Source of the DNA: Negativicutes bacterium
GTDB taxonomy: Bacteria > Bacillota > Negativicutes > Sporomusales > JAOACF01
Assembly: GCA_026417995.1 (NCBI GenBank)
Contig: JAOACF010000009.1
Span: forward strand, 1-33,366
Reading direction: 5' to 3'
DNA: 33,366 nucleotides
Within the stretch, counting starts at the first letter, position 1. The number at the start of each line of letters is the position of its first letter. Position numbers and translations under genes: made by a program. Of this stretch, positions 3,360-31,097 are shown one piece after another. The notes under the pieces are model-generated. The model was not told where the DNA came from. It did not search any database and saw only the letters and a program-made list of their open reading frames with translations.

Positions 3360-3387
3360 AGAAAGCAGTTGCTCTTTTTGTATTTTT

Positions 3388-11549: not shown

Positions 11550-12398
11550 TTACAATTTCTCAGCAAGCCTATCTAAATCCTTGACTACGCCGCCAATTTC
11601 CTGTACAGTGCTAGCCACTTGTGCTATTGCTTCCGCCACTTGGGCAATAACCACTTCAATCTGGCTAATTTGCCGATAATTATTCTGACTGTCAGCCTGT
11701 ACGGTTTTAATGATGGATTCGATTTTTCTGATCGATTCATTGCTGTTTGCCGCCAGCTTACGAATTTCTTCCGCCACTACCCCGAAACCCCGTCCCTGAT
11801 CTCCCACCCGGGCAGCTTCTATAGCCGCATTTAGACCCAGTAGGTTTGTTTGTCCGGCAATATTTTTGATTATATCCAAAACTTGGTCTGTTTCGCGTAT
11901 CCTCGCTTGAGACTTTGCCGTGATTTCGGCAGCTTCGCGGCTTACGGCCGAAATTTCCTGGGATTGAGCCGAGATCTCCTCAGTTGTTGCAGCTAAGGAA
12001 GTGATACTGTCAAGCAGTTTAGCGGCCATATGCTGTACTTGCTCTTGGCGTTCCACAGGTTGGGTAATAGCAACCGCCCCAATAACATCGCCGACGGAGT
12101 TGGTAACCGGTATGGCTGTTGCTATGTATGGCAAACCATATAAAGAGCTATCGAAGCGCATATCAATCCGGCGATTTTCGTGAATAGCGCGGTATACGCC
12201 GCTGCCCGGTTTCAGCGCAGCATGGAACGGTACTTTCAAATCCAGGCGCTGCCCCGGTTTGTACAAGAGAAACTTTTCCCTGTCGGTTAATGTTACACCA
12301 GCATCCGGGTCTAAGGCTTGCTGAATAATGGGCAGGGTATGCAATAACATATCTAACAGTCGCTCATCTTGCGATTGCATGACCTTCTCCTCTTCCAT
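11550..12398 (-). CDS. Soluble methyl-accepting chemotaxis protein (no transmembrane segment)
   Basis: MCP signalling tip [42 protein letters not shown]-terminal about 115-aa cytosolic sensor-like region; no hydrophobic helices or HAMP apparent. Confidence 0.88.
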
Positions 12399-13287
12399 CT
12401 TTCTCCTCCGATTGCTGCTTCACATATTTGCTCTCAAGTTCTCTAATCTTTGTCAGGCCAATGAGCTCATTAAAGTCATTGAATGTTATCATTTCATTCA
12501 TTATTCCCGCAGTCGTACCTGTTGCTTTGAGTTCTTCCATTAATCTGATGACGGCCTTAGTTACGATATAAGTTGATGCTGTAGGGAAAATAACAATGTT
12601 ATAGCCAATTCGCTCCAGTTGCGTCACGGGGAGAAACGGCGTGCGTCCGCCCTCGACCATGTTAGCCAATACCGGTACTTTAAAGAAACTTGTGATCCGT
12701 TTCATCTCATCCACTGTTTCCGGCGATTCTACAAACAGCAAGTCGGCGCCAGCTTCTTCATAGGCTTTTGCCCGCTCAAGTGCTTCGTCAATTCCATGAA
12801 CAGTCCGCGCATCGGTGCGGGCGATAATTACCAGATCAGGATCTTGTCTGGTATCTACCGCTGCTTTAATTTTTCCGATCATTTCTTCCTTAGAAACAAC
12901 CTGACGTCCGGTCATATGGCCGCATTTCTTCGGCGCTACCTGGTCTTCAAGTTGAATTGCCGCAACTCCGGCTTTTTCATACTCCCGGACGGTGCGCATT
13001 ACATTGATGGCGTTGCCAAAACCGGTATCCGCGTCGGCAACGACCGGTACATTTACAGCTTCAACCATATTGGCCGCTCTGGTTACCATTTCACTCATGG
13101 TCAGCAGGCCTACGTCAGGCTTGCCTAAATGACTGGCCGCCTGGCCGTAGCCGGTCATATAGACAACCGGAAATCCGACTCTTTCAATAATCCTGGCAGT
13201 AAGCACATCATGAGCGCCGGGGGCAACCACGATTTCTTTTGCAGCTAACAGTTGCCGGAGAATAGTTGTTTTCTTCACTGAATTCAC
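12364..13287 (-). CDS. dml: 2,3-dimethylmalate lyase (isocitrate lyase/PEP mutase superfamily)
   Basis: [47 protein letters not shown]; superfamily active-site KKCGH; position in the nicotinate locus selects Dml over methylisocitrate lyase. Confidence 0.85.
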
Positions 13288-14714
13288 CCTTCCCTCAACC
13301 CAAAATATCGTTTGGCAAATCTGAGGGCACGGTCGGCATAGTGCTGAGATAATGCCCCCACAGCGTACAATGCATATTGCTCGTCGATTATGAATTCCGG
13401 CTCAGTCGGCAGCAGAGAGATGCCCGGGTTTTTAAAGGCCTGTTCCAAGATAAACCGTCGCGTCCCGGGGTCTAAATGCGTAAATATGCCGCCAACGGCG
13501 ATCACATAGCGCACGCGCCGAAGATCACGCCCGATGGGCGTTCCCGGCGTTATTCCCAATACCGGGTTGAATTCCTGGGATAAGTATCCGGCATGCCGCT
13601 TGAGCGCAACCTCAATAGCGCTAGCCGCTAAGGCAATATCAAAGTCACGATCACGCTCAGTCCTGGCTATGTGTCCCGGGTTTTTCTCCAAAAAAGCGGC
13701 GTATTCTGTAACTTCCTCAGCCAATTCTTCTTCGGCCTTGCCGATCTTCGCCAGCACCCCAAGCGGCCCCACCGTCTCCACGATGCCGGTCGCGCTTACC
13801 CGCAGCCCTAAGTTACCTTCAACCGTACGGTAGGAAGGCTGCTTTTCGTTATTAATAACCAATCCCCTTTCTTCAATCGACAGGTTTTCCAGTTCGGGCA
13901 GCACCGAATGAATATCGGTGGTGGCGCCGCCAATATCAACAACCAGCACATCGCCAACACCCTCCTGCCGGAATGTTCCTTTCGCCAGAAGCTCCGCACC
14001 GAGCAGCACCGCACCGGGAGTTGGCGTCACTTTGCCGTTCGATACCAAAGCCAACAATTTGTTAAGGCCTTTTGCCCGGGTGATTTGTTTGATAAATTGC
14101 TCGTGAATAGCTTCGCGGGCGGGCTTAACCTTAAGTTCATGAATTGTTGGCATAACGTTAGGAACCCGTATGGTCGCAATCCCGCCGGCGGTTAGTATTT
14201 CTGACGCTGTCGGCTGCACCTCTTTATTCGCGGCGAGGATCACTACCGCTTTAATTTGCGTCTGAACGATGATTTTAGCGTTAGTCAGTACCGAATCCTG
14301 GTCGCCGCCGTCCGTCCCGCCGGCCAGCAGAATAATGTCCGGCTGAATTTCCCGCAGTACCTGCAGGCGGTATTCCGGCGGGTCCTCCTGACTGATTACT
14401 TCCAGCACCCGCGCACCCGCGCTCATAGCCACCTCTTTGGCAGCTTTAGCCGTAACGCGCGGCATATATCCGAGCGCTACCATGCGAAGGCCGCCGGCCG
14501 CGCTGCTGGTAGAAAACACCTTGACGTCCGGGGATATAGCAACTCCCCTGTCTATCAATATTTGTTTTGCCGCGCGCACGCCATTTTCAATATTATCTAT
14601 TGTCGTCAGCGCCTGTGAACGCCCGCACAAAATCAGGTCATCCTGCTGCATTAGAAACGCGCAAAGCTTGGTATACGTGCTGCCCACATCGAAAACAAGC
14701 ACATTGGCTTCCAT
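13284..14714 (-). CDS. GlmL/MutL-like protein (glutamate mutase accessory-protein family)
   Basis: Likely start MEANVLVFDVGSTYTKLCAF after GGGGGAAAAATC; phosphate-binding motifs VFDVGSTYTK and VVDIGGATTDIHS; directly downstream of the mutase/isomerase genes. Confidence 0.85.
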   Translation of the reverse strand: MEANVLVFDVGSTYTKLCAFLMQQDDLILCGRSQALTTIDNIENGVRAAKQILIDRGVAISPDVKVFSTSSAAGGLRMVALGYMPRVTAKAAKEVAMSAGARVLEVISQEDPPEYRLQVLREIQPDIILLAGGTDGGDQDSVLTNAKIIVQTQIKAVVILAANKEVQPTASEILTAGGIATIRVPNVMPTIHELKVKPAREAIHEQFIKQITRAKGLNKLLALVSNGKVTPTPGAVLLGAELLAKGTFRQEGVGDVLVVDIGGATTDIHSVLPELENLSIEERGLVINNEKQPSYRTVEGNLGLRVSATGIVETVGPLGVLAKIGKAEEELAEEVTEYAAFLEKNPGHIARTERDRDFDIALAASAIEVALKRHAGYLSQEFNPVLGITPGTPIGRDLRRVRYVIAVGGIFTHLDPGTRRFILEQAFKNPGISLLPTEPEFIIDEQYALYAVGALSQHYADRALRFAKRYFGLREG

Positions 14715-14733
14715 GATTTTTCCCCCTGGTGTA

Positions 14734-15867
14734 CTATGCATTGCGCACAAAAACATACCCTTCCATAATCCGGCGCGCAGTTCTGGCAAATGCAGCCCGG
14801 ATCAGCTTACCGTTTTTAAATGAAGCTTCGACTTCAATAACGCCAGCGGGGTGACCGATCCTGATGACATCGATAGCATCGATGTGCGGAATAGCTTCAT
14901 GCACAATGGTGCCGGGTATTTTGGCAGCGGCGCCGGTGCAAGCCGTGCCAGTTCCCGGATAGGTTTTATGGAGCACTTGCATGAACATCATGCGGGAGCA
15001 AAAATCGACCTGATCTTTGGTGATGGTGCGGCCGGAAGTAAAATCAACGTAATCCCGGGCCGGAGCGACAAAAGCGATCATGGGAAAGGCCGGGCTTTTC
15101 GCTGTAGCCGCTTCTATATCAGGCGCCATGCCGATCATCACAGTAGCTTTGGCGCGAATTTCTTCCAGCAGCTTGAGCAGCTTCTGGTTACCGTTGACTT
15201 CCTGCGGCGTTTCCCCGCCGGTCATGCCGATGTCTTTTGCCCGAATAAAGACGCAGGGATTGGAGACATCAACGATGGATATATCAAGCGGCCCAATAGT
15301 AGTCTCAATTGTATCCACCGGCTTGCCGGTCGGCAGCATTTTGCCTGTCACCGAACCGGTAGTATCGTAAAAGTCCATCATGATTTTTGCACCGGTTCCC
15401 GGTACCCCGTCAATCCGACAGTCGCCCTTAACTTTCGCCAATCCACCTTCTGTCGGCACTTCGGCGACTAAAATTTTGCCTGTATTGGTATTGTGAATCC
15501 TCACAGTTGTAATTGGCTCCCGTGCAATTACAAAACCTTCATCAATAGCATACGGTCCAACGGCTGACGAGATATTGCCGCAATTGCCCGAGTAATCGAT
15601 ATAGGGCGTATTGATGCTTACCTGCCCAAACGTATAATCAATGTCTGCTTCAGGATGGGTTGAGGGGCCGATAATGGCAAGTTTGCTGGTGAGCGGATCA
15701 GCGCCGGCCAAGCCATCGATCTGGCGAACATCAGGACTGCCAAAGATTTCAAGAATTAATTTGTCGCGAGCCTCTTTGTCTTTCGGTATGTGGTTTTCTT
15801 TCAGGAAAATAGCCTTGCTGGTGCCCCCCCGCATAATCGTACAGGGAATCCGTGTCATATCTGCCAT
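14734..15867 (-). CDS. mii: 3-methylitaconate delta-isomerase (PrpF family)
   Basis: PrpF-like N-terminus RIPCTIMRGGTSKAIFLKENHIP; YSGNCGNISSAVGPYAI; GTACTGAAAKIPGTI; adjacent to the mutase gene. Confidence 0.87.
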   Translation of the reverse strand: MADMTRIPCTIMRGGTSKAIFLKENHIPKDKEARDKLILEIFGSPDVRQIDGLAGADPLTSKLAIIGPSTHPEADIDYTFGQVSINTPYIDYSGNCGNISSAVGPYAIDEGFVIAREPITTVRIHNTNTGKILVAEVPTEGGLAKVKGDCRIDGVPGTGAKIMMDFYDTTGSVTGKMLPTGKPVDTIETTIGPLDISIVDVSNPCVFIRAKDIGMTGGETPQEVNGNQKLLKLLEEIRAKATVMIGMAPDIEAATAKSPAFPMIAFVAPARDYVDFTSGRTITKDQVDFCSRMMFMQVLHKTYPGTGTACTGAAAKIPGTIVHEAIPHIDAIDVIRIGHPAGVIEVEASFKNGKLIRAAFARTARRIMEGYVFVRNA

Positions 15868-17711
15868 TACATCCCTCTCCTTTCAAGTTCCCGCTCCACC
15901 CAGGCAACGCATTTTGCCGGATCGGTACCCGGCCCGAAGAAAGCGTCCACGCCTAAGAAAGCAGTTCCTTCCGTTTGGATTTTTGTTTCGTAAGTTGAGT
16001 GTTCTTCTTCTTTTTCCGCAATACGCCCGCCGGCAATAAGCACCACCTTATCCCTGAGACCCAAGTCCTGTAGGCGCCTGTCTACCCGCGGGAAGAGCTC
16101 GCGTCCCAAGCCCAGCAGATTGCCGACACCTACAATATCCGCCTTGGCTTCGGCTGCCACTTCAGCCACCGTTTCCGGCAAATTCATGCCGCGCAGGTAG
16201 ATAACCTCGAATCCGGCTTTTTCGAAAGCTTCGCGGATTAAATTAACTCCCATTACATGCGCATCTGCGCCTACGGTGGCCAGCACCATCTTCTGCTTGC
16301 GCGTAGGTTTCGTTTCCGGCACGACCTCAACCGGCTCGGCCGTTACCGCTACGCGTTTTTCGTCAACGCCTATGGGAGTGAATCCCGGCACATACCGTTT
16401 TATTCCGTCCCGGTCACGGTGCGTTTTGACATGGCGTTTAAGATCCCAGCCGCCGGCACGCGGCGCATCCATGATACCCGATTTTCCTGCCCTGACAATC
16501 AAATCGACTAATTCATCGATACCGTATTGGCGCCAAAACTTAGCATTTATGTCACCGGGCACAAGGGATTTAACGCCCAGCACGCTCTCTAATACGGCCA
16601 TTGCCTCGTCCAATATCTCGTTTTTGCGAATTTCAATATAAGGATCATGAATATCAATCGGCACTGTATTGCTGAATACATCATGCGTGGCCCACATCGC
16701 TTTCGCCATCGAAGCCCCTGTAGGTATTCCCACCGATTCTGCCGCTTTCGGACGGTAAAAATTCGCCTTGCCCAGTTTGGCGCTGATTGCCATGCGGGCA
16801 AAATGCGCGGCCTCAGCGATCAGGTCTGCCGGCGGGTTTTGGAAGGTTTCGGGTACGACAATCAGGCTGGAACTCCACATCGTCTCCTTGAAAGCCCGCA
16901 TGGCCGCAAGGTCGGCTAACAAGTTATAGCCGGCAACATTCATTTGCAAAGCGCTGAGTTCCGGCGGCAAACCGGCCAAAATACCCAAACCTTCAGCCAG
17001 CAGGCACATAGCCAGCGCCATTCCATCTGTGCCGCCAATGTTATTTAGATGTTTATGCGACTCGATCTGCACAAAAATTTTATTCTCGGCGCAAATTTCC
17101 AGCGCTTTTACGCCGTTAACCACTTTGGTGCGGTAATCATGGATGCCTCTGCCGCCAAAGTGAACATGGATGACCGGACCAATATCCGTTCCGTCAAAAC
17201 CGGCAATAAAAGCATTCAGTATAGATAAATGCGGTGTGTCGCCCGTGGCATTAATCCGCATCGGATGAACAGCGCCGCCACCAAGCTTTACCAGTTCACG
17301 CTCCCCTTGCGGCGTGATGCCGCCTTTGCCGCGCGATTGTTCAATAAGTTCCCTGCCATTTAACGGGTCAATATGGCGGGTGGCTTCTGAGTGAACAAAA
17401 TGGAAGATGGTCGTGCCCAATTTGTCCGCCATATTGTACATTTCAAGCGATTCTTTATAGGTTTCCTCCGCCGTATTGCGGCCAAGAATGGGGTTTTGCA
17501 CCGGAATTCCTGTTTCTTCCGCTTTTTTGCCCAATTCATAAATCCGGTAGCCGCTGCGGACAACGCCGCACACTTCCCGCGGGTACGGTGCGGGCAGACC
17601 GCTTATGGATCCGTCTTTGCCAACCTCCGGCATGGGTACGCCAAAAACCTGCTCGTAAGCTTTAACCCGCTCATAATCCTCTGTAATAATATTCATGGTT
17701 CTCTCTTGCAT
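15867..17711 (-). CDS. mgm: 2-methyleneglutarate mutase (adenosylcobalamin-dependent)
   Basis: 614 aa; C-terminal B12-binding domain with [33 protein letters not shown] (DxHxxG) and [17 protein letters not shown] 7 nt before ATG. Confidence 0.92.
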
Positions 17712-17722
17712 CGTTTTTCCTC

Positions 17723-18214
17723 CTAGTTTACGCCAAGTTCTTGTCTAACCCGATTGATGAGTCCGCCGGCCCGTATGGTTTCCAAGGTATTCGCCGATAG
17801 CGGTTTACCCTTAAGCACTGCATCCTTAAGGATGATTTCCCCTGTTTCCAGATTGGCTTCAATGATGTCCCCGCTCTGTATGTGTCCGGCTGTTTCGGCA
17901 ACCAGCACCGGCAGGCCGATATTGATAGCATTGCGGCGGAAGATTCGCGCAAAAGAGCCCGCGATAACCAGACCGACCCCCGCCCCCTTTAACGCTACCG
18001 GGGCTTGCTCCCGGCTCGAACCGCAGCCGAAATTCTTGCCAGCGATGATAATGTCACCTTCCTGGACTTTAGCTGCAAAATCGGGAACTGAACTTCCGGC
18101 CATTGCAAATTTGGGTAAATTGGCAACTTCCTCTGCCATAGCGTAGCCTGGCAATATTTGATCGGTATCGACATTATTGCCAAATACCCAGGCACGTCCT
18201 CGCAAAATGCTCAT
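17723..18214 (-). CDS. dmdB: 2,3-dimethylmalate dehydratase small subunit (LeuD/aconitase swivel fold)
   Basis: [70 protein letters not shown]. Confidence 0.9.
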
Positions 18215-19419
18215 GCTTCCTTCCCCCCCGCAGGCAGCGTACCGGGCGCAGTGATTACGCCGCGAACTGCAGTCTCGGCAGCAGTCGCCGGCGATGCCAA
18301 ATAAATCTTTGCATTACGATGGCCCATTCGACCCAGAAAATTGCGGTTGGTAGTGGACAGCACCGTATCTCTTTCGGCGGCAAGCCCCTGATGAGCGCCG
18401 AAGCAGGGCCCGCAGCCCGGATTGGTGATAACCGCACCGGCATTTCGTAAAATCTCGCACCAGCCCAGCTTCTCCATTTCGCCCAAAATTGTTTTCGAGG
18501 CGGGAATAAGCAGGAGGTTAACATCAGGATGAACCTTATGAAATTTAAGCACATCGACTACGCGTTTAAAGTCGCCCAACCTGCCGTTGGTGCAACTCCC
18601 GACAACTACCTGCGTTACAGCAATATCTTCCAGCTCACTGGCAGGCTTTACGTTGGCCGGCGAATGCGGGCATGCGACCACCGGAACCAATGTTTCCAGC
18701 GCTAGGGGAACAGTTTCTGCCACTTCCGCCTCTAATTCGCTTCCGCCAAAGCAGGCAATCATCGCCCCTGCCTCAATTCCCATATTGCAGATCGTCATCC
18801 GGTCCTCATCGCTCAGCGTCTGAATGCCCGGTCCGGTAAAGACTACTGCCTTGTCAGTAAGGCCGTCGGTACCAAACCGTTTAATCAATGTAAGGATGAC
18901 ATCTTTGCCGCAAACAAAAGCCGCAGGCTTTCCCGTGACGTAGATTTGCATAACCTCCGGAACTTCTAAGTCGATGGTGCCGGTTGCCATCGCTGCCGCC
19001 AGTTCGGTTGAACCAACGCCGATGCCGATAGCGCCATATGCTCCGGCCGTACAAGTGTGGGAATCGGCACCGATAAGAATCTGTCCCGGCTGCAAACGAT
19101 GCCTTTCGGCTAATAACTGATGACAAACCCCCTCGCCCTTTTCATAAAATACGATACCATACTTAGCAGCAAAATCTTTCATTTTCCAATAGGCGTTACG
19201 CGCCTGCACCGTAGCAGCGGGAAAGATATGGTCGATAACAAAAACAATTTTATTGCGATCAAAAACCCGAGAAACGCCTATTTGTTCAAATTGCTCAACA
19301 GCCATTGGCGCTGTAACGTCGTGAGCCATAGTCAAGTCCACTTTGCAGCGGATATCCTGTCCCGGCTGTACACTGTCAAGACCGGCAGCCTTAGCCAAAT
19401 ACCTTTCAATGAAATTCAT
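18211..19419 (-). CDS. dmdA: 2,3-dimethylmalate dehydratase large subunit (LeuC/aconitase family)
   Basis: LIGADSHTCTAGAYGAIGIGVGSTELAAAMATG, VVVGSCTNGRLGDFKR, VITNPGCGPCFGAHQG Fe-S cysteines; likely start MNFIERYLAKAAG. Confidence 0.9.
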   Translation of the reverse strand: MNFIERYLAKAAGLDSVQPGQDIRCKVDLTMAHDVTAPMAVEQFEQIGVSRVFDRNKIVFVIDHIFPAATVQARNAYWKMKDFAAKYGIVFYEKGEGVCHQLLAERHRLQPGQILIGADSHTCTAGAYGAIGIGVGSTELAAAMATGTIDLEVPEVMQIYVTGKPAAFVCGKDVILTLIKRFGTDGLTDKAVVFTGPGIQTLSDEDRMTICNMGIEAGAMIACFGGSELEAEVAETVPLALETLVPVVACPHSPANVKPASELEDIAVTQVVVGSCTNGRLGDFKRVVDVLKFHKVHPDVNLLLIPASKTILGEMEKLGWCEILRNAGAVITNPGCGPCFGAHQGLAAERDTVLSTTNRNFLGRMGHRNAKIYLASPATAAETAVRGVITAPGTLPAGGKEA

Positions 19420-19454
19420 GCTCCATCCACCTTTATTCATTAAGAATTGCTGGG

Positions 19455-20873
19455 TTAATCGACAAGGTCAATGCCTAATTCTTTGGCGATTTTGGCCGCC
19501 TCTTCCAGACTGGGAACAGCTTGTTGCAGTACCAGCCTGCCTCCGCCGCGATTCAACGCCTGCACCTGAAAACATCCTTCAGTCGTTTCCAGCGTGATCC
19601 GCTGCATCTGCTGCTCCTGAACCTGAAGAACTTCCACCTCAATGCCCGCCTTTGCCACTTTATCCATAACTTCGCGATAAAGCTGGCTGTTATCCGTGCC
19701 GGCTCCGTATACCGCCGCCATAAGTACACCGGGAACATTAATTCCCCTGCGGGCAAACAACTCGGGATACAGTTCAATTTTCACTTTCTTAATTTGACCC
19801 TTTGCCAGATAATGCGCAATTCTTGCCGCGTTGGTCGGCGATCCTACAGCCTGGCTGCTGCCTCCGACAACAGCCTCGCCAAAAGGTTTAATAATCGAAT
19901 TTGCTTTCTTGGCCAGCTCGCGCGCTTCACTGAGCGCTTCCCGGATCGTATCGTAAATCCGCCGTTTTTCTTCGTCTTTAGCGGCGGACGCGATGTACTT
20001 CTCTACAGCCTGATTGGTTTTGAAAAAGGGCTCCATATACTTAATCACAACCGGAACAATAGTCTTGGCCGACACGGGATGAACAGCGGCTGCCATAGCG
20101 ATCATCACATCAACCGGCACCGTTACCGGTAGGGAAGTCAGCATCGCAAGCTGCGCCGCCAGCTTGCCGATCATAACCCCTCCGCCAATATGGGTCGAAC
20201 ATAATCCGGCAACCATGACCCGTGGGGTGCAAGGGTTGGCAATGGTAGGCGACAGCGCCAGCACAATCGCTTTTTCCATCGCCGCAGGCCCGCCGCCTGC
20301 CAACTCTACGAAGGCGGCAGCGGAAGCAGCCGCCCCTGCGCCGAAACCCTCCATGTTGCAGCCGGTGGTAGTCTTACCGACACGGAATATGCCGCCAATC
20401 TTGAGCATAACTGCCGCTACCCTGGCAATGAGTTCCTGGTCGGTAATTTCATCCAGCATAGCCCTGACAAAGCCGGTATATGTACAAGCATCTCCCGTAC
20501 CCGCGCAAGGCGCAAGCCCTACCGAATGATTGCCCACTTGCGCGCTGAGCGTATAGGCAAGCACTTTGTTCAAAAACGCATCCTCAACCAATGCGGGAGC
20601 GCCCTTCTCTGTCAGTTCTCTGCCAACCGAACCCATCAAAAAGCTGGCGCCATAGGTTGTGCCAATATCGAGCGCATACAGATTATGCGAGAAGGCGTCT
20701 ACTACCGCCGACATGACTTCCGACTGCGACATTTTATTGGCGAGCATTGCCTCAGCGATCACGGCATCGCTGACCCGGGTCTGGGTTGCGCCGGCTATTT
20801 CCAGGCAATCCCCCACTGTCAGTTGCCCCGGCGTCAATCCTTTTTCAGCTATCCTTCTGGCTATCGCTTGCAA
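19455..20873 (-). CDS. hmd: 2-(hydroxymethyl)glutarate dehydratase (Fe-S L-serine dehydratase-like)
   Basis: SDH-alpha-like: GATQTRVSDAVIAEAM, GLAPCAGTGDACTYTG, TTGCNMEGFGAGAAASAAAFVELAGGGP, NPCTPRVMVAGLCS; neighbour of hgd. Confidence 0.85.
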   Translation of the reverse strand: MQAIARRIAEKGLTPGQLTVGDCLEIAGATQTRVSDAVIAEAMLANKMSQSEVMSAVVDAFSHNLYALDIGTTYGASFLMGSVGRELTEKGAPALVEDAFLNKVLAYTLSAQVGNHSVGLAPCAGTGDACTYTGFVRAMLDEITDQELIARVAAVMLKIGGIFRVGKTTTGCNMEGFGAGAAASAAAFVELAGGGPAAMEKAIVLALSPTIANPCTPRVMVAGLCSTHIGGGVMIGKLAAQLAMLTSLPVTVPVDVMIAMAAAVHPVSAKTIVPVVIKYMEPFFKTNQAVEKYIASAAKDEEKRRIYDTIREALSEARELAKKANSIIKPFGEAVVGGSSQAVGSPTNAARIAHYLAKGQIKKVKIELYPELFARRGINVPGVLMAAVYGAGTDNSQLYREVMDKVAKAGIEVEVLQVQEQQMQRITLETTEGCFQVQALNRGGGRLVLQQAVPSLEEAAKIAKELGIDLVD

Positions 20874-20903
20874 ATGTAATCCCCTCCGCAGCTCTTGTTA
20901 AGC

Positions 20904-21794: not shown

Positions 21795-21805
21795 TTTTAA
21801 TCCTC

Positions 21806-22390
21806 CTACCTGAGACCGTCTTCGCCTTTTATTTCATGCTTTTGCAGACCGCCAATACGCGGATGCGGCCGTCCGCCTGAGGTAACTGCGATTGCAACAA
21901 CAATTTCGTCCGCTTTTGGCGCATCGTGCAGTCTGATTTCCATAGCATCATAATGTGTCCGTACAAAGGCCGCGTCTTTATAATGCAGCGGAACGTCAAG
22001 CGTTGTTCCGGGGCCACCTAGTTTCTTAGCCGAAGGTACAATAGCCTTGCCGCCATTCACTTCTTCCCGCATCGGCTTGCCAAGTTTCGGATGCAAAATA
22101 GCAGCGCCATGCTCGAGTTCACCATCCATGCCGATAATCGCCGCTTTGCCATAGTTTTCGACCTCTTCCCTGGCTATGCCCAGCGCTTCTACCGCCCGCC
22201 TGGTAAGAAATCCGCCAAGATATTCGCCAACATCAGTCAACAAGGTCAGATCCTCCACATATCTTCCGGCAAACGGATTTTTAATCACGGCGATAGCCGC
22301 TGCTTTTTTAATTGGCTTTTCCACTGCCCTCTGACCGTCAGCACGAACTTCCTCAACAACGGTTACAACCTTCCGGATGTCCAAATTCAT
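21806..22390 (-). CDS. DUF1185 / 'amino acid synthesis' family protein, function in this pathway unknown
   Basis: Family resemblance: KNPFAGRYVEDLTLLTDVGEYLGGFLTRRAVEALG, YGKAAIIGMDGELEHGAAILHPKLGKPMRE, HYDAMEIRLHDAPKADEIVVAIAVTSGGRPHPRIGGL. Confidence 0.75.
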   Translation of the reverse strand: MNLDIRKVVTVVEEVRADGQRAVEKPIKKAAAIAVIKNPFAGRYVEDLTLLTDVGEYLGGFLTRRAVEALGIAREEVENYGKAAIIGMDGELEHGAAILHPKLGKPMREEVNGGKAIVPSAKKLGGPGTTLDVPLHYKDAAFVRTHYDAMEIRLHDAPKADEIVVAIAVTSGGRPHPRIGGLQKHEIKGEDGLR

Positions 22391-22393
22391 GTA

Positions 22394-23254
22394 TTATCCC
22401 TCCGTTTTGGTGATTTTTGGCGAATAAAATTCCGGGCATATTCGATCATGCCCCTGAACTTGCGCGATCACTGCTAAAATATCTCCTCGCCGAAGCGCGC
22501 CTGCCGCTGTATTTTCAATTTGCTGCAGACTGCGCTCTTTCTCTGCCGGGCTGAGCCTACCAATGCGCGTCGTGACCGTCAACTCAGGAATATCGGTAGA
22601 TGGGTCCAATTCTTTTGCCAAAGCTTGTTTGACGGCCATACTCTCTATAAAACTGGCATTCGCCAGAAAAGTGGCGAACGCATCAGCTACGGCAGCACTC
22701 CTTGCCACTACCGTAACAGCGTCAGCAATGCCTCTGGTGAAGCTTCTGCCGCCAAAACCGCTTGTCGCGATGCCGCCCGCTCCATCAAAAGCAGTCAGCC
22801 GCAGTGTATGGCTAAATCTGGCGCTGCCAATCCGGGGGGCGATACCGGCGATAAGTTCTTCGCCAGGCGCCAAGCGCAATGCGATATCCCCGCCATTATT
22901 GCAGATAACTTTCGTAGCTCCGTGCGCGGCAAGCCAGTCCGCCGTCACATCCGCGATTGCACCTGCCACCGCCGCCATGGGTGTCATCGTAGAATCTCCC
23001 GTTAGCCTAACCGCATCCCACATTTTACGCGCGGTGGGCGTAAGCTTTTCCGGACGGCATTCACCCCAAGGCAGGGAACTTTCGCGCCGGCAAGAAGTTA
23101 TTGCCTCAAGACAGGCTACGGCTTGCCGAGCTGCTTGCTTACACAGCCCGGCAAGAGGAGCGCCGTTCTGCCAAGCCGCAATCATCATTGAAATTGGCCC
23201 GCACTCCACAAAAATCCGGCCGGGAGCAATTTCAGTGATAAAATCTTTATTCAT
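22394..23254 (-). CDS. UPF0280 family protein (ApbE-like fold)
   Basis: Likely start MNKDFITEIAPGRIFVECGPISMMIAA overlapping the hnr stop by 8 nt (ATGAATAA); MAAVAGAIADVTADWLAAHGATKVICNNGGDIALRL; GIATSGFGGRSFTRGIADAVTVVA. Confidence 0.75.
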   Translation of the reverse strand: MNKDFITEIAPGRIFVECGPISMMIAAWQNGAPLAGLCKQAARQAVACLEAITSCRRESSLPWGECRPEKLTPTARKMWDAVRLTGDSTMTPMAAVAGAIADVTADWLAAHGATKVICNNGGDIALRLAPGEELIAGIAPRIGSARFSHTLRLTAFDGAGGIATSGFGGRSFTRGIADAVTVVARSAAVADAFATFLANASFIESMAVKQALAKELDPSTDIPELTVTTRIGRLSPAEKERSLQQIENTAAGALRRGDILAVIAQVQGHDRICPEFYSPKITKTEG

Positions 23255-24749
23255 CGCAATTTTTCTCACATTTAATTTCATAAAGCGGCTTGATCTGGTC
23301 CACATGGCCGCCAATTGCCTCATAGTCCTCCCGCGTCATGGTATATTCGACTGGCGCCACCGTAGCCGGCGTAGGTACCCAGCTAAAAGCCTTTGCTACC
23401 ATCTTGCCGGTATCTACCATAAAATTGATGCCGCCGCCAGGCAGTACATAGGCTGGAGCGCCACCTATCGTCAGCGTGGCTTTGCCATCGTGTACCGCCC
23501 GTGTTAAGGCTACCGGCTTGGTCGTGACGCCGGCCCGGGCGCTGCCGCCCGTACCTCCGGTATATATGACAGATACCAGTGCGTCCTCGCAGTTCGCGGC
23601 AATTAGATCAACCAACGCCTGCACTTTTGCTGTAAGCGGAACTTCATCGACATTGCCGTCCTCCTTAACTTTAAAAAGCGCTGCCTTTCGGCCGGTGGTT
23701 TCCGTAACCAATATTGTCATGCCAGGCTTGGCGATGCTCATGTCGATAGCTTTGATGGCATCGCGCGGATTTACGATATGGGTGCCGCCCCACCCGCGCC
23801 CGTGTTCACCAAAATAACGGCCTCGCGTGCTTTTGCGGGCGTTGGGAATAACGCCGCTCCAGCTCATGCCCACTTCGGCGCCGGCCAGATGCTCGGAAAA
23901 TAATCCAATTACGTGGTGGTCAAGAATGATTGCCTCGTCCACCACTCCCTTAATATCCCGCGCAAAGAGTCCTATCGTTGCACTGCCGCAGCCAACCCGC
24001 ATCTTGCTATCTTCCACTCCGTCAATGACCGGGCGTTTTCCGGCTTCCAATTCAAGCTTGGCGCCATTCTCTACCGTCAGCATAACCCGTTCGCCATTGG
24101 CAAGATCAACGATCGTCCTGGCGACAATAAACCCATCTTTACCGGTCAACAGGTTCGCCCCGCCAATCGAGAGCATCTTGGAGCCGTATTCCTCGGTATC
24201 CACCATGCCGACACCGCGGCCCTCGCGTTTAACCTTGGCGCCTTCTTCACCTATATAAAAGTTGGTATCAATCTTTACTTTTACGCCACTGTAGCTAAGC
24301 GGCGCCTCGGTCACAACCGTAACGACATCTACGCCGTTGACAGTATCCTGCACAATATGCGGTGCGGGCTTGCAGCAGGGGTAATTGGTGCCTGCCCCTA
24401 CCGCCGTGATCAGCGGTGTTAAACTTCGCCTGCCCGTTTTTCTCGGGACGGCAGTCTCCAGCGCTCGGCTGCGAACCAGTCTCCCGCCCCGGTTTTCATA
24501 GCGCCGGCAAGCACCGGCATATCCTTCCAACACTTCGCATTGAACCGGACAGGAAGTGCATTTTACGGCGCCTTCAGCAAGGTCGCCGCGACGGACTGCC
24601 TGAAACTTGCACACACGCAGGCAAATGCCGCACTGCACGCATTTGTCATTTACCCTGGCTTTTCGATTAACGACTTCGATGGCTGATGTCGGGCAATCAC
24701 GCACACAAAGGCCACACCCTTTGCATAGCGCAACGTCGATAATTACCAT
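23247..24749 (-). CDS. hnr: 6-hydroxynicotinate reductase (Fe-S protein)
   Basis: N-terminal two 4Fe-4S motifs (CKGCGLCVRDCPTSAIE, CVQCGICLRVCKFQAV) plus CTSCPVQC, fused to a long domain I recognise as the Hnr family; adjacent to enamidase and ndh genes. Confidence 0.85.
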   Translation of the reverse strand: MVIIDVALCKGCGLCVRDCPTSAIEVVNRKARVNDKCVQCGICLRVCKFQAVRRGDLAEGAVKCTSCPVQCEVLEGYAGACRRYENRGGRLVRSRALETAVPRKTGRRSLTPLITAVGAGTNYPCCKPAPHIVQDTVNGVDVVTVVTEAPLSYSGVKVKIDTNFYIGEEGAKVKREGRGVGMVDTEEYGSKMLSIGGANLLTGKDGFIVARTIVDLANGERVMLTVENGAKLELEAGKRPVIDGVEDSKMRVGCGSATIGLFARDIKGVVDEAIILDHHVIGLFSEHLAGAEVGMSWSGVIPNARKSTRGRYFGEHGRGWGGTHIVNPRDAIKAIDMSIAKPGMTILVTETTGRKAALFKVKEDGNVDEVPLTAKVQALVDLIAANCEDALVSVIYTGGTGGSARAGVTTKPVALTRAVHDGKATLTIGGAPAYVLPGGGINFMVDTGKMVAKAFSWVPTPATVAPVEYTMTREDYEAIGGHVDQIKPLYEIKCEKNCDE

Positions 24750-24759
24750 GATCCACCTC

Positions 24760-25920
24760 TTAGAGAAGTTTTGCCGCTCGCTGCGCAGGCGGCGTATTCC
24801 GGCTGGTTTTAACCTTAATTTCGCCGTCGACGATCACCATGCTCACGCCCGGTATGTCACCAGCCTCAATGGCAGCGACTGCATCTTTGCCAATTGAGCC
24901 AAGCGGCGCATCCATAATGACTAAATCCCCTTCTTTCCCGACTTCAACCACGCCCGTCGGCAACCCGTATACCCGCGCGGTATTGCCTGACGCCATGGCG
25001 ATGGCTTCCGGCCCGCTAATGCCGGACAAACTCGCCAGTTGGCAAACCGTACGCAGAATACCTAAGGGAATAACGCCGGTGCCGGAAGGGGCATCATTGC
25101 CAATGATTATCCGATGCAGTTGACCTTTGGCCTTCATAGTACGGGCGACATGGTCGGCTACCTTGGGATTGCCGCACTGAACAATTTCCAGGGCAAAGTC
25201 GGTCTGTTCAATGATTTTGTCAACTTCCGCCGGCGCAATAGCCGTTGGTCCGCCGTTAATGTGCGACACAACTGTCGGTTTGGTAAGCATGACGTCTTCG
25301 GCAGTCACGGTGGAGCTTCCGGGAATGGAAGTGCCGCCGCAGTGCATTTGCACCTTGAAACCGTGCTTTTTGGCCCACTCTACCATAGGCGCCGCTTCGG
25401 CCGGCTTTTTGATGCCGCCCAAGCCTACTTCGCCTACCAGCCAAACTCCATTTTGCGCTAACTCGGCAAAGTCGGCTTCAGTGAGGCCAGGTTCTAAAAT
25501 CACGGCTCCGCCGTGTACTTTTACGCCGGAGGGGCGCTGATTGTAAAAAGATTTGCTGGCAAGCACCGCCAGAGCTTTGACACCTGCCGGGTCTTTCGGT
25601 CTTCCCGGCATATGGGCTTCGCCCGCCGAAATCATGGTGGTGACGCCGCCATGCAGGGAACTGTCGATAAAATCAATCATTTTTTGCCGCGGCGTATAGT
25701 CGCCTATAACAGTGTGGGCATGTGAGTCGATTAAGCCGGGAGTGACGGTGGCGCCGTTGGCGTTCACCACTGGCGCCCCCGGGTACTGATCTTTAAGTTC
25801 GGCTCCGCCGATAGCCGCAATTTTTTTATCGGCAATCACGATGGTATCGCCGCCTAAAACAGGCGCCTCCACTTTACCGCTCAGGATGGTTCCGATATTG
25901 GTGATTATCAGCGTGCTCAT
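24760..25920 (-). CDS. ena: Enamidase (1,4,5,6-tetrahydro-6-oxonicotinate hydrolase, amidohydrolase superfamily)
   Basis: 386 aa; TPGLIDSHAHTVIGDYTPRQKMIDFIDSSLHGGVTTMISAGEAHMPGRPKDPAG; QMHCGGTSIPGS; IIGNDAPSGTGVIPLGILRTVCQLASLSG. Confidence 0.92.
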   Translation of the reverse strand: MSTLIITNIGTILSGKVEAPVLGGDTIVIADKKIAAIGGAELKDQYPGAPVVNANGATVTPGLIDSHAHTVIGDYTPRQKMIDFIDSSLHGGVTTMISAGEAHMPGRPKDPAGVKALAVLASKSFYNQRPSGVKVHGGAVILEPGLTEADFAELAQNGVWLVGEVGLGGIKKPAEAAPMVEWAKKHGFKVQMHCGGTSIPGSSTVTAEDVMLTKPTVVSHINGGPTAIAPAEVDKIIEQTDFALEIVQCGNPKVADHVARTMKAKGQLHRIIIGNDAPSGTGVIPLGILRTVCQLASLSGISGPEAIAMASGNTARVYGLPTGVVEVGKEGDLVIMDAPLGSIGKDAVAAIEAGDIPGVSMVIVDGEIKVKTSRNTPPAQRAAKLL

Positions 25921-25926
25921 CGATTA

Positions 25927-26994
25927 CTAAGCCCCCTTATTTTGCTTTTCCTTCAATTTCGCCAGTATTTTATCCGGCGTTATAGGCAAATCAGTTATGC
26001 GTACTCCGACAGCATCGTATACCGCGTTGGCAATGGCTGCAGCCGTAGGGATGAGCGCCGGCTCGCCAACGCCCTTTGCGCCAAACGGCCCGGTCTTTTC
26101 CGGATCCTCCACAATCAGCGGATAGATTTCCGGCACATCAAGCGAGGTTGGCAGCAGGTATGTGGCAAAATTACAATTGAGAACATTACCTTCCTGCAAT
26201 TTGATTTCTTCCATCAGAGCATAGCCCATGCCAATAGCGCAACCGCCCTCAATCTGCCCTTCGACATTGCGCGGATTGATAGCCCGCCCTACATCGTGAG
26301 CGGCGACGACCCGCAATACGGTAACTTCCCCGGTATCTTCATCCACTTCCACTTCCGCCACTTGGGTGGCGAACGCGTAAGTCGCATAAGGGCGTCCCTG
26401 GCCGGTTTCGGCGTCAAGGCCGGTTGTATCAGGGTTATACCACCCATGTCCCAGGGTTAGTTTGCCTTTCATCCGGCACTTGGCAATCACCTCCGCGATC
26501 GATACCTCGCGGGTGTCGCTCCCGGAATCTAGGCCCAGACCTACTCTGCATTCCGACTGACAATCTGTGAATGCCTGACTTTTGCCGGAAGCGGCCCGCA
26601 CTTTAAGCAGCCTGTCACCTGCGATAATTTCCTCCTGACTTACGCCCAGCATTTCGGCAGCCGTTTCCAGAATTAACTGCTTGGCCGCGCGGGCGGCCGA
26701 GCGAACGGCATTCCCCGAGATATATGTCTGCCGGCTGGCCGAAGTTGCGCCGGCATCCGGCGTAACTCCCGTATCGGCCGAAACTACCCGCACGTCCTCA
26801 TAGCGTACACCGATTTCTTCGGCTGCGATTTGCGCCAGCGCGGTATCCGAACCTTGCCCGATATCGGCACAACCGGTTAAAACCAAGACTGTTCCATCAT
26901 CCAGAATATCAACATGAGCTCCTGCGGGATTTGGCAGGCCGGTGTTGCCGACACCGTACCACATGCATCCCATGCCTACGCCTCGCTTTTTCAT
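25927..26994 (-). CDS. ndhM: Nicotinate dehydrogenase medium molybdopterin subunit
   Basis: C-terminal half of a xanthine-dehydrogenase-family Mo subunit: DILDDGTVLVLTGCADIGQGSDTALAQIAAEEIGV, GATSASRQTYISGNAV, VLRVVAAHDVGRAINPRNVEGQIEGGCAIGMGYALMEE, GAKGVGEPALIPTAAAIANAVYDAVGVRI. Confidence 0.9.
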   Translation of the reverse strand: MKKRGVGMGCMWYGVGNTGLPNPAGAHVDILDDGTVLVLTGCADIGQGSDTALAQIAAEEIGVRYEDVRVVSADTGVTPDAGATSASRQTYISGNAVRSAARAAKQLILETAAEMLGVSQEEIIAGDRLLKVRAASGKSQAFTDCQSECRVGLGLDSGSDTREVSIAEVIAKCRMKGKLTLGHGWYNPDTTGLDAETGQGRPYATYAFATQVAEVEVDEDTGEVTVLRVVAAHDVGRAINPRNVEGQIEGGCAIGMGYALMEEIKLQEGNVLNCNFATYLLPTSLDVPEIYPLIVEDPEKTGPFGAKGVGEPALIPTAAAIANAVYDAVGVRITDLPITPDKILAKLKEKQNKGA

Positions 26995-28274
26995 AGCCGG
27001 CCACCTCTCCGCTCAAGTTTAATTTCCCGGACTTTTGCGGCGGCTGCCTCCAGGGTGGAAACAATACCGACACTTTGCTCCAGATACTGGCCGGTGGCTG
27101 TCAGGGAACCGGGGCGCAGCGCGTTCAGAAGCCTTATCTCTAAGGGCGATATGCCCACCTTCTCTGCCAGCATATCCATTTGCGCTTCATGCGCAAATGC
27201 CACCTGCGGCACGCCGAAGCCGCGCATGGCGCCTGCCTGCGGATTATTGGTATAAACTGTATAGGCTGTAATCTTAACATTCGGAATTTCATACGGCCCG
27301 GTGGCATGAACAGCAGAGCGAGTAAGCGTACCCGGCCCATAGGAGGCATATGCCCCTGTATCGCCGATAATCGTGCATTCAAAGGCGGTAAGCCGCCCGT
27401 TGGCATCAGCGCCGGTCTTCATGGTAATGGTGTAAGGGTGGCGTTTGACCGAATTTTTAATCGATTCCGTCCGGGAGTAAACCATCCGAACCGGACGCCG
27501 GGTAACAACAGCCAGCATCGCCAGATGCACCTGCACCGACACATCCAGTTTGCCGCCAAAGCCGCCGCCGGTAGCCGCCTGAATGACCCGGACTTTATTT
27601 AAGCCAATGTTAAGATTGCGCGCCACTTCTTTTGCATCGTAATGCGGATTTTGCGTTGAAACCCACATGGTAACAACATCCCCGTCAAACAATGCTATAC
27701 CCGCCTCCGGCTCGATGTAGGCATGCTCGACCATCTGCGTCTTGTACTGCTGCTGGACAACAACTGCGCTGTCCCGAAATCCGGCCTCGGTGTCGCCTTT
27801 CACGATTTTGCGCACGGCCAATACATTGCCTTTGTCGTATATCTTGGGCGCATCCGGCTGCATGGCGGCTATCGGGCATAAAACAGGCGTCAATTCTTCA
27901 ATATCCACTTTAATCAACGCCAGGGCTTGTTCGGCTATCGCCTCGTTCTCGGCTGCCACCAGAGCCAGCGTGTCGCCAATCTTGCGTATCTTTTCGCCGT
28001 TCTTAACGATAACGGGTTCATCCTTGATGATAATGCCAAAATTATTTGCGCCCGGCACGTCTTTGCCAGTTAAAACCGCGGCTACCCCAGGCAAAGCTGC
28101 TGCCGCGGAATAGTCAATATGCTGCAGAATGCCGTGGGCAACCGGACTGCGCAGCGCTTTGGCGTAGAGCATGCCGGGAAAGGAAATATCGGCGGCGAAC
28201 TTGGCTCTGCCAATAACTTTATCCAGCGCATCCGCTTTGGGAACCGACTGGCCAACTACCTTAAACTCGCTCAT
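26991..28274 (-). CDS. ndhL: Nicotinate dehydrogenase large molybdopterin subunit
   Basis: Likely start MSEFKVVGQSVPKADALDKVIGRAKFAADISFPGMLYAKALRSPVAH; TGGGFGGKLDVSVQVHLAMLAVVTRRPVRMVYSR; AGAMRGFGVPQVAFAHEAQMD; 4-nt overlap with ndhM. Confidence 0.92.
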   Translation of the reverse strand: MSEFKVVGQSVPKADALDKVIGRAKFAADISFPGMLYAKALRSPVAHGILQHIDYSAAAALPGVAAVLTGKDVPGANNFGIIIKDEPVIVKNGEKIRKIGDTLALVAAENEAIAEQALALIKVDIEELTPVLCPIAAMQPDAPKIYDKGNVLAVRKIVKGDTEAGFRDSAVVVQQQYKTQMVEHAYIEPEAGIALFDGDVVTMWVSTQNPHYDAKEVARNLNIGLNKVRVIQAATGGGFGGKLDVSVQVHLAMLAVVTRRPVRMVYSRTESIKNSVKRHPYTITMKTGADANGRLTAFECTIIGDTGAYASYGPGTLTRSAVHATGPYEIPNVKITAYTVYTNNPQAGAMRGFGVPQVAFAHEAQMDMLAEKVGISPLEIRLLNALRPGSLTATGQYLEQSVGIVSTLEAAAAKVREIKLERRGGRL

Positions 28275-28275
28275 C

Positions 28276-28782
28276 TTAACGCCCCTCCTCAGCTTCCCGG
28301 CTGCAGGCGCAGTGACGATCCGCGCACGCCACTTTTTCGATTGCGTTGATAATCTTGGTATAGCCAGTACAGCGGCATAAATTGCCGGCGATATGTCTGG
28401 CGATTTCCTCCCGTGTTGGGCGCGCGTTAACATCAAGCAGCGACTTGGCGCTCAGCAGCATACCGGGAGTACAGAACCCGCACTGTACCGCGCCCTCGGC
28501 GATAAAGGCCTCTTGCAGCGGGTGAAGCTTATCGTATGACCCTAACCCCTCAACGGTAACCACTTCGCAGCCATTCACCCTCGCTGCCAGGAGCAAACAG
28601 GAGTTCACGTTCTTGCCATTGAGCAGCACGGTGCAGGCGCCGCAGTCTCCTTCACCGCAGCCCACTTTCGTTCCGGTTAGCCCCAAACGCTCCCTGAGCA
28701 AATCAATAAGCAGCAAATCAGGTTCGACCTCTACTTGGCGCGTCTCGCCGTTTAAAACGAACTGAATTTTGATTTTATCCAC
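28276..28782 (-). CDS. ndhS: Nicotinate dehydrogenase small [2Fe-2S] subunit
   Basis: GTG start VDKIKIQFVLNGETRQVEVEPD after AAAGGAGGTTGCGCCT; KVGCGEGDCGACTVLLNGKNVNSC and QCGFCTPGMLL...NLCRCTGYTKI. Confidence 0.93.
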   Translation of the reverse strand: MDKIKIQFVLNGETRQVEVEPDLLLIDLLRERLGLTGTKVGCGEGDCGACTVLLNGKNVNSCLLLAARVNGCEVVTVEGLGSYDKLHPLQEAFIAEGAVQCGFCTPGMLLSAKSLLDVNARPTREEIARHIAGNLCRCTGYTKIINAIEKVACADRHCACSREAEEGR

Positions 28783-29647
28783 AGGCGCAACCTCCTTTGG
28801 CGCGCCGCGCCGCCGTCTCCAGCGCGCGGATAACAACCTGTCGGGCTAAGTCACCCCGATATTCTGCACTGGAACGAATGTCGCTAATTGGTCTCACCAG
28901 TTTTTCCGCCATCGTTCCTGCTGTCTTAAATGTAGAGGCTGCAAGCGTTTGTCCGCGCAGCCAATCTTCTATTGCCAAAAGACGTATCGGGGTTGGCGCG
29001 ACAGCGCCCATCGCCAGCCGTACATCTTTGATTTTGTCGCCGTCAATTGTTATCCATGCCGCCCCATTGACAACGGCAATCGCCAGCGCTTTCCGCTTAC
29101 CAAATTTTACAAAAGCTGAACCTTGGTTTTGCCCGCTCGCCGGTACTTTGATGCGGCTGATAATCTGGCCGGGCTTAAGGCACGTCCGGCCAGTCCCGGT
29201 AAACAGGTCGGCTACAAGTATGGCAGAAATCCCGGTACGGCTTTGAATTTCGGCTTCGGCGTTGAGCGCCAGAAGCGCGGGAGCGGTATCAGCGGCGGGA
29301 GATGCGTTGACAATATTGCCGCCAATGGTAGCTATATGGCGGATTTGAGGCGAACCGACCTCGCCGGCAGCTTCGTACAGCGCCGTCGCCGCTGCTCGCA
29401 GCCTGGCGGAAGCGGTAATTTCGTAATGAGTAACCAAAGCTCCAATCGAAAAGCAATGCGGACATTCCTCAATCCCTTTCATGGCGGCAATGCCGTTAAT
29501 ATCGACTACCGCTTTAGGGTCAATGAGTTTTTCTTTCCATTTCACTATCAAATCGGTGCCGCCTGCCAGCAAAGAATATTGCTCCAGACTGTCAAGCGTT
29601 GCGAACAAATTCTCCAATGTACGGGGAGCATGATATACAAATGGCAT
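28775..29647 (-). CDS. ndhF: Nicotinate dehydrogenase FAD subunit
   Basis: YSLLAGGTDLIVKWKEKLIDPKAVVDING; GEVGSPQIRHIATIGGNIVNASPAADTAPALLAL; CO-dehydrogenase flavoprotein family. Confidence 0.92.
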   Translation of the reverse strand: MPFVYHAPRTLENLFATLDSLEQYSLLAGGTDLIVKWKEKLIDPKAVVDINGIAAMKGIEECPHCFSIGALVTHYEITASARLRAAATALYEAAGEVGSPQIRHIATIGGNIVNASPAADTAPALLALNAEAEIQSRTGISAILVADLFTGTGRTCLKPGQIISRIKVPASGQNQGSAFVKFGKRKALAIAVVNGAAWITIDGDKIKDVRLAMGAVAPTPIRLLAIEDWLRGQTLAASTFKTAGTMAEKLVRPISDIRSSAEYRGDLARQVVIRALETAARRAKGGCACG

Positions 29648-29720
29648 ACTATCACCTCCGGCGCCTTCTCTCTACCTCATCATAAGCAAGATTCATGCCA
29701 ACGAATTTGCCAATCTCATA

Positions 29721-29747
29721 GGAGAAGGGGCCTTAAGCCCCTTCTCC
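29721..29747. other. Perfect 11-bp inverted repeat (strong RNA hairpin) between transporter and ndhF genes
   Basis: GGAGAAGGGGC-CTTAA-GCCCCTTCTCC; no U-tract on the minus (coding) strand. Confidence 0.85.
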
Positions 29748-29756
29748 TTCGCCTAT

Positions 29757-31097
29757 TTAAACTGATTTAGTCTTAGCGAGATCTTCAAGCGATTTTTGCT
29801 TGGTCTCTTCGCCTAAAACAACAATGTTCAGAGCAACAATCATCATAACGGCCGTAAACATGGCGAAAACTGTACCGAACTTTTCCGGGCCGGTCATAAT
29901 CCAACCAACAATGATCGGGGCAAGAATTCCGCCGATACGGCCGAAGGCGGCTGCGCAGCCAACACCGGTCGCACGGGCGTGAGTCGGATACATTTCCGGC
30001 GTATACGTATAAACAACGCCCCATGCTCCCAAGTTAAAGAAGGACATCAGGCAGCCCCACAAGAGAATTTCGGCGCCGGTCTTCGCGCCGCCGAACATAT
30101 AGGCGCATACGGCGCAAGCGGCAATGAAGGAGGACAACGTCGCTTTGCGGCCAACACGGTCAACCAGATACGCAGCCACAAAGTAGCCGGGAATTTGCGC
30201 CAGCGTCATCCACATGACAAACTCGAACGACCGGATCAAATTATGCCCGCTCTTTACCAGGAGTGAAGGCAGCCAGGTGAAGATGCCGTAATACGAGAAG
30301 ACGATGCCAAACCAGAGAATCCAAAGGCAGATTGTACGTTTGAGATACATTCCCTGCCACAGTTCGGCGAAAGTGAAGGCAGCCTTAGCTCCCGCACTTT
30401 TCTCGGCGGCAGAGGGAGGCGATCCTACCGGTACACCCAGCTCGCGCTCAATTTTGGCAACAACTTCGTGCGCCTCATCGTAGCGGCCTTTGTTCACAAG
30501 GTACATAGCCGATTCGGGAACGACCTGCCATAGCCAGAATACGGCGAGCGCCGGAAGAGCGCCAATGAAGAAGGCAACCTGCCAGCCGTATTTGGGGATA
30601 ATGAGATATGAAATGACGGCAGCGGCCAGCCAGCCAATAGCCCAGGCGCTTTCCAGCAGTACAATCATCATGCCGCGCTGCCTGGCAGGTGCATATTCAC
30701 TCATCAGTGTAACGGCAACAGGCAATTGCCCGCCTACGCCGAAGCCAACTAAAAAGCGGAAAAAGAGCAGTGACTCATAATTCCAGGCAATACCGCAAAG
30801 ACCGGTGGCGATACTATAAATCACCAAGGTACCGGCGAAAACCCGCTTGCGGCCAAACTTGTCGGCAATAGTCCCGGATAAAATAGCGCCTACCGCCATA
30901 CCTACCAAACCTATACTGCCGATAAAGCCAATCTGAGCGGAGGTAAGCTTCCAGGACTCGATCATTTTGGCCAGTACAAAGGCCACGATTCCTGTATCCA
31001 TCGAGTCAAACGCCCAGCCGAGCATCATAAGAAACAATAAACGCCAGTGAAACTTCCCCAAGGGCAAATTGCTAAGACGATCGGAAATACTTGCCAT
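29757..31097 (-). CDS. MFS transporter, aromatic acid:H+ symporter / NiaP-like, probable nicotinate importer
   Basis: About 12 hydrophobic segments; MLGWAFDSMDTGIVAFVLAKM, GTIADKFGRKRVF, RFLVGFGVGGQLPVAVTLMSEY; first gene of the operon. AAAGGAGGTTAAATATCA before ATG. Confidence 0.85.
   Translation of the reverse strand: MASISDRLSNLPLGKFHWRLLFLMMLGWAFDSMDTGIVAFVLAKMIESWKLTSAQIGFIGSIGLVGMAVGAILSGTIADKFGRKRVFAGTLVIYSIATGLCGIAWNYESLLFFRFLVGFGVGGQLPVAVTLMSEYAPARQRGMMIVLLESAWAIGWLAAAVISYLIIPKYGWQVAFFIGALPALAVFWLWQVVPESAMYLVNKGRYDEAHEVVAKIERELGVPVGSPPSAAEKSAGAKAAFTFAELWQGMYLKRTICLWILWFGIVFSYYGIFTWLPSLLVKSGHNLIRSFEFVMWMTLAQIPGYFVAAYLVDRVGRKATLSSFIAACAVCAYMFGGAKTGAEILLWGCLMSFFNLGAWGVVYTYTPEMYPTHARATGVGCAAAFGRIGGILAPIIVGWIMTGPEKFGTVFAMFTAVMMIVALNIVVLGEETKQKSLEDLAKTKSV

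Follow-up and report, generated by a model that had tools for sequence, protein, structure and literature searches.

A predicted nicotinate fermentation operon from an uncultured Negativicutes bacterium and the UPF0280 and PF06684 genes conserved within it

The fermentation of nicotinate is already known from Eubacterium barkeri, whose gene cluster for the pathway was reportedly described by Alhapel et al. in PNAS in 2006. Here we analyze a block of genes from an uncultured bacterium that is related to Sporomusaceae and known only from environmental DNA; the window, meaning the whole stretch that was analyzed, covers positions 1-33366 of a contig that is 38,542 bases long. From its gene content, homology and conservation across genomes we read the block as a complete and inducible operon that would serve the anaerobic fermentation of nicotinate and that has a UPF0280 gene and a PF06684 gene as part of its core, and we put the probability of this reading at about 0.93. 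Because the pathway is established, the operon taken alone would be a gain in annotation. The comparison of clusters also gives testable roles to the UPF0280 and PF06684 genes: it supplies a concrete candidate gene for how 6-hydroxynicotinate reductase (Hnr) would gain a covalent flavin, and it gives PF06684, a structurally solved family, a pathway context.

Gene content of the operon

Eighteen open reading frames (ORFs), all on the minus strand, run from 31097 to 11550 with overlaps or short gaps between neighbours, the widest gap inside the operon being the 109 nucleotides from mfs to ndhF. An earlier note on this DNA had described this run of 18 co-directional genes and had read it as a near-complete nicotinate fermentation regulon. 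The gene run is confirmed, the family assignments made at that time agree with the Pfam and NCBIfam classes, and the nine-step reading holds, with most steps grouping with E. barkeri proteins. "Near-complete" was too weak, as genes for all nine steps are present in the one cluster, and "regulon" had been claimed with neither promoter nor regulator, for which a sigma-54 promoter, putative activator sites and an activator gene have now been found. That activator gene, which lies upstream of the range first considered and is part of the operon unit, had been left out, as had the two conserved genes UPF0280 and PF06684.

For comparison we used a genome, G446, found with the 2VUN sequence as query against the family to which Acetobacterium bakii belongs. 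Its enamidase is 100% identical to 2VUN, from which the genome would by inference be that of E. barkeri. On one of its contigs, 16 of the 18 ORFs have counterparts in a single 20-kilobase cluster, at 29-69% identity; the two ORFs absent from this cluster are those of the MFS transporter and the MCP-like protein. In the list that follows, percentages are identities to the G446 cluster and scores against PDB entries are those of the top match, with the next best in brackets; we take 2VUN, 3G7K, 3HRD and 3CKY to be E. barkeri enzymes. Several starts in the ORF list lay too far 5', and the likely ones are 28274 for ndhL (MSEFK...), 14714 for mutL (MEANV...) and 23254 for UPF0280 (MNKDF...).

31509..33095, minus strand: sigma-54-dependent activator, likely operon regulator, with an unclassified N-terminal sensor region, an AAA+ domain and a Fis-type helix-turn-helix (Pfam Sigma54_activat, HTH_8); orthologues in related operons
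29757..31097, minus strand: mfs, MFS transporter of the aromatic acid:H+ symporter type, putative nicotinate importer; TIGR00895 324 bits, below cut-off
28775..29647, minus strand: ndhF, nicotinate dehydrogenase flavin adenine dinucleotide (FAD) subunit, divergent; Pfam FAD_binding_5, CO_deh_flav_C; 29%
28276..28836, minus strand: ndhS, 2x[2Fe-2S] subunit; Fer2, Fer2_2; 53%
26991..28274, minus strand: ndhL, N-terminal half of the split molybdopterin subunit; 3HRD_A 436 bits (210); 50%
25927..26994, minus strand: ndhM, C-terminal half of the split molybdopterin subunit; 3HRD_B 334 bits (188); 49%
24760..25920, minus strand: ena, enamidase; 2VUN 571 bits (24); 68%
23247..24749, minus strand: hnr, 6-hydroxynicotinate reductase; 61%
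22394..23254, minus strand: UPF0280, ApbE-like fold, proposed Hnr flavin transferase or flavin-insertion factor, from co-occurrence and structure; 41%
21806..22390, minus strand: PF06684 (DUF1185, "amino acid synthesis") protein; PF06684 252 bits; 61%
20904..21794, minus strand: hgd, 2-(hydroxymethyl)glutarate dehydrogenase; 3CKY 350 bits (218); 58%
19455..20873, minus strand: hmd, 2-(hydroxymethyl)glutarate dehydratase; five invariant Cys; 51%
18211..19440, minus strand: dmdA-like aconitase-family large subunit, by its tree position not orthologous to E. barkeri DmdA; 40%
17723..18214, minus strand: dmdB-like small subunit; TIGR02087; 44%
15867..17711, minus strand: mgm, B12-dependent 2-methyleneglutarate mutase; B12-binding domain, DAHVMG motif; 69%
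14734..15867, minus strand: mii, 3-methylitaconate isomerase; 3G7K 552 bits (258); 67%
13284..14714, minus strand: mutL/glmL-like mutase reactivation protein; PF13941 443 bits, TIGR01319 above cut-off; 51%
12364..13287, minus strand: dml, 2,3-dimethylmalate lyase; PEP_mutase superfamily; 67%
11550..12398, minus strand: soluble MCP-like protein with a short signalling domain and an unclassified N-terminal domain; MCPsignal 98 bits

The molybdopterin subunit is split between NdhL and NdhM as in the E. barkeri type, with MoCoBD_1 and MoCoBD_2 on separate ORFs. The best PDB matches of NdhF are other flavin subunits, and for Dml, NdhF and NdhS the PDB matches do not set apart E. barkeri-type enzymes. 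Hmd found no match in Pfam, NCBIfam or PDB, its PDB hits to 14-3-3 proteins being rejected as spurious. The earlier note had expected the ORFs to group with the characterized E. barkeri proteins, and they do so for Mgm, Ena, Mii, Dml, Hnr, Hgd, NdhS, Hmd, the GlmL-like protein, NdhL and NdhM (49-69%), weakly for NdhF and, as judged from a tree, not for DmdA. Its warning that standard annotation would mislabel several members was right, because none of the curated models carries the name of Hmd, Hnr or Ena, and Mii matches models of 2-methylaconitate isomerase/oxalomesaconate tautomerase, Dml of methylisocitrate lyase and DmdAB of LeuCD/homoaconitase (Pfam, NCBIfam). Assembly of the block by chance is excluded, since just 15 of the 398 genomes sampled from the phylum contain hnr and the same neighbours recur at independent loci.

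With each reaction assigned through homology, nicotinate would be imported and then hydroxylated by a four-subunit molybdenum, probably selenium-dependent, dehydrogenase; Hnr would reduce the product, Ena would open the ring, and Hgd, Hmd, Mgm, Mii, DmdAB and Dml would lead to propionate and pyruvate. The nicotinate dehydrogenase of E. barkeri contains selenium. In the genome studied here we found YqeB (373 bits), with YqeC-like and XdhC-like ORFs seen by eye to adjoin yqeB, and a SelD gene with one in-frame TGA (L111, G000:C159:51148-52065) whose product probably contains selenocysteine. Such maturation genes for selenium-dependent molybdenum hydroxylases are consistent with a selenium-containing nicotinate dehydrogenase.

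Promoter and putative activator sites

Between the activator gene and mfs there is a sigma-54 promoter, accompanied by palindromes:

31196..31212, minus strand: sigma-54 -24/-12 promoter TTGGCATAATTCTTGCA, about 100 nucleotides upstream of mfs; score 0.95
31483..31516, no strand assigned: paired palindromic putative activator sites TTTCATAATTGCAA-n6-TTGCAATTATGAAA, overlapping the end of the activator gene
31417-31430: third palindromic putative activator site

Across 13 homologous regions the best -24/-12 site reached at least 0.89 of the maximum score in 12, the 99th percentile of shuffled sequence being 0.80. The paired palindromes of the window stand 20 base pairs (bp) apart, and palindromes related to TTTCAN4TTGCAA are paired at 18-22 bp in 11 of the 13 regions. 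Since the palindrome motif was derived from the window, the other 12 regions serve as the test; Markov-shuffled versions of these regions gave 0.007 on average. The homologous promoter regions align to that of the window at only 34-54% identity, and in the whole genome the palindrome pair was found once, at the operon. In the mechanism we infer, the sigma-54 activator would sense a ligand as inducer, bind the paired palindromes and set off transcription from the -24/-12 promoter that precedes mfs.

Inspection by eye had suggested that the activator and the MCP-like protein share a sensor domain; this was rejected (BLASTP E 0.029 over 24 residues; hhalign probability 7%). Genes similar to that of the MCP-like protein stand beside hnr at six other loci (L034, L037, L040, L053, L056, L059).

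The UPF0280 and PF06684 genes

Hnr consists of an N-terminal 2x[4Fe-4S] ferredoxin part followed by a large catalytic region. The N-terminal part holds 12 invariant cysteines, eight in the ferredoxin pattern plus C64, C67, C71 and C81. The predicted structure is confident, with a predicted local distance difference test (pLDDT) of 92; when it was compared with solved structures only the ferredoxin part matched, and no match reached an E of 0.001.

A profile of the long form of UPF0280 scored at least 192 bits in 15 of the 398 genomes, exactly the 15 with hnr, and in none of the 383 without it, the next match being at 92 bits to the widespread short form. Generic UPF0280 was rejected as a marker, as the short form is common (about 130 genomes, at most 92 bits) and only the long form tracks hnr. 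About 80 such clusters were compared, and UPF0280 is present in all 43 full-length loci, usually abutting hnr; these loci span Bacillota, Deltaproteobacteria and Spirochaeta, as well as Alphaproteobacteria, in which they lie on plasmids. In one genome, G108, the operon is otherwise largely intact, hnr has been lost and UPF0280 is left as a fragment with stop codons. The locus concerned (L116, G108:C141:15000-33000) has the activator, ena, PF06684, hgd, hmd, mgm, mii, mutL and dml of a nicotinate-type operon; no hnr or ndh was found there, and mfs likewise remains as a fragment.

The predicted structure of UPF0280 (pLDDT 95.6) is closest to 2O34, and Foldseek matches it to ApbE, FmnB and Ftp with E of 1e-5 to 1e-3 and probability 1.00. 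Its NNGGD, TSG and ADAxAT motifs vary little or not at all, and it has the fold and the GGD, TSG and ADAxAT motifs in common with the ApbE FAD:protein flavin mononucleotide transferases. Canonical ApbE is absent from five Hnr-bearing genomes. On this structural and genomic evidence UPF0280, though not classed as ApbE, may work like it; it is the best candidate for attaching the covalent flavin of Hnr, which it would most likely install.

PF06684 occurs in all 15 Hnr-bearing genomes and in two others, one of which is G108. It was seen in 37 of the 38 full-length loci with ena and in none of the five without; the lone ena locus lacking it, that of Acetobacterium bakii, is a flank artefact, the gene lying just past the fetched stretch. 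A strict tie of PF06684 to the enamidase was nevertheless rejected, for PF06684 also occurs in Sagittula and Pleomorphomonas, where no ena match lies nearby. The family has a chorismate-mutase-like fold and is without known function (PMC2954203). We propose from its neighbourhood that PF06684 acts after ring opening, for example as an enamine/imine hydrolase or a tautomerase, where it would most likely help the step that follows. Five loci (L087, L098, L099, L085 and L076) have ndh-like genes, hnr and UPF0280, without ena or PF06684; they possibly encode a related pathway for another heterocycle.

Alternative readings and comparison with described systems

Several points weigh against the reading given here. 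The genome assembly (2.65 Mb in 236 contigs) is 89% complete, NdhF is merely 29% identical to its E. barkeri counterpart, and the DmdA of the window is not orthologous to the characterized E. barkeri enzyme. The covalent flavin of E. barkeri Hnr is one reportedly described in the same 2006 work. The ApbE target motif D-x-x-[ST]-G-A-[ST] (2025 review, PMC12052999) was found in none of 40 Hnr proteins, nor in E. barkeri-type Hnr, and the HIxDP catalytic segment of ApbE was not seen by eye in UPF0280, which lacks an invariant His and has an invariant GGRS in that region; the standard ApbE reaction is thus unlikely. A CGSAT motif with T258, a first candidate for the flavin site, is conserved in 35 of the 40 Hnr sequences. 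The literature searched had no paper on the Hnr flavin. The same two absences, and the lack in that literature of any paper on the function of UPF0280, the generic form included, would suit a UPF0280 that serves Hnr as a structural partner, a maturation chaperone or a factor delivering FAD and that is not a flavin transferase. We regard this as a serious contender at somewhat less than even odds, set against the ApbE-like fold with its ApbE-type motifs and the strict co-occurrence with an enzyme said to hold covalent flavin. A more specific proposal, in which the long UPF0280 is a dedicated, non-ApbE flavin transferase of Hnr with a new target or linkage, Hnr is a ferredoxin-type ring reductase of unseen fold and PF06684 is a ring-opening enamine/imine hydrolase, is tentative, and taken whole we would sooner bet against it.

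The operon might instead degrade a related N-heterocyclic acid, such as another pyridine carboxylate, by parallel chemistry. The divergent NdhF, a DmdA and a transporter that differ from those of E. barkeri, and the ndh and hnr paralogues that L087, L098 and L099 carry without ena would all fit such a substrate, but five proteins (Ena, Hnr, Mgm, Mii and Dml) share 61-69% identity with their counterparts in the E. barkeri cluster, and the operon retains both the division into NdhL and NdhM and the complete downstream set; we consider a substrate other than nicotinate very improbable. As to DmdAB, the DmdA of the window is equally close to a LeuC-like protein and to the DmdA of G446, as would be expected if the pair were ordinary LeuCD/homoaconitase paralogues that stand in the cluster by chance, with dimethylmaleate hydrated elsewhere. 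A maximum-likelihood tree makes this improbable: the 23 operon-borne DmdA proteins, that of the window included, form a separate clade (100/99) whose members all come from nicotinate loci and which stands away from the genome's own LeuC-like copies, whereas the G446 DmdA falls among LeuC-like proteins (99/99) that include one encoded by the same genome as the window. The tree program gave a warning that branches at the outgroup were long, which should not affect the DmdA/LeuC split. The simplest reading of the tree is that a LeuCD copy replaced the original DmdAB in the E. barkeri lineage. The dimethylmaleate hydratase step would then be one at which an aconitase-family enzyme was swapped for another during evolution, and the E. 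barkeri protein would therefore be the exception among these operons.

The left flank (window 107-8328) is a separate catabolic island with a nitroreductase-like gene, a thiolase, two CoA-transferase subunits, a PucR-type regulator, a class-III aminotransferase and an aldehyde dehydrogenase, and a membrane-bound pyrophosphatase gene at 9458-11458 is convergent with the operon end. Beyond the window (L026, contig bases 33000-38542) are a transporter of the CitMHS/ArsB type and a set of genes for a [NiFe] hydrogenase. An Rfam scan of the window gave no match.

The hnr clusters of aerobic Alphaproteobacteria, namely those of Azorhizobium and Bradyrhizobiaceae SG-6C (PMC3511419) and of the Sagittula and Pleomorphomonas plasmids, have hnr, UPF0280 and PF06684 in a row as in the window, and two conserved unknown proteins had been noted in such clusters (PMC3511419). 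The alphaproteobacterial Hnr aligns only from about residue 45-62 and is without most of the ferredoxin part. The two plasmid loci, in which PF06684 comes after hnr and UPF0280, have no ena match, carrying hydantoinase/oxoprolinase-type genes instead, and they lack the mutase branch.

With the E. barkeri cluster the window operon has in common all nine enzyme steps, the split NdhL/NdhM and the GlmL-like, UPF0280 and PF06684 genes. The gene order differs between the two. The window operon has a sigma-54 activator where the E. barkeri cluster has a divergent LysR-type gene, an MFS transporter where E. barkeri has a transporter ORF of another family, an additional MCP-like gene, and a DmdAB from a different clade of the aconitase family.

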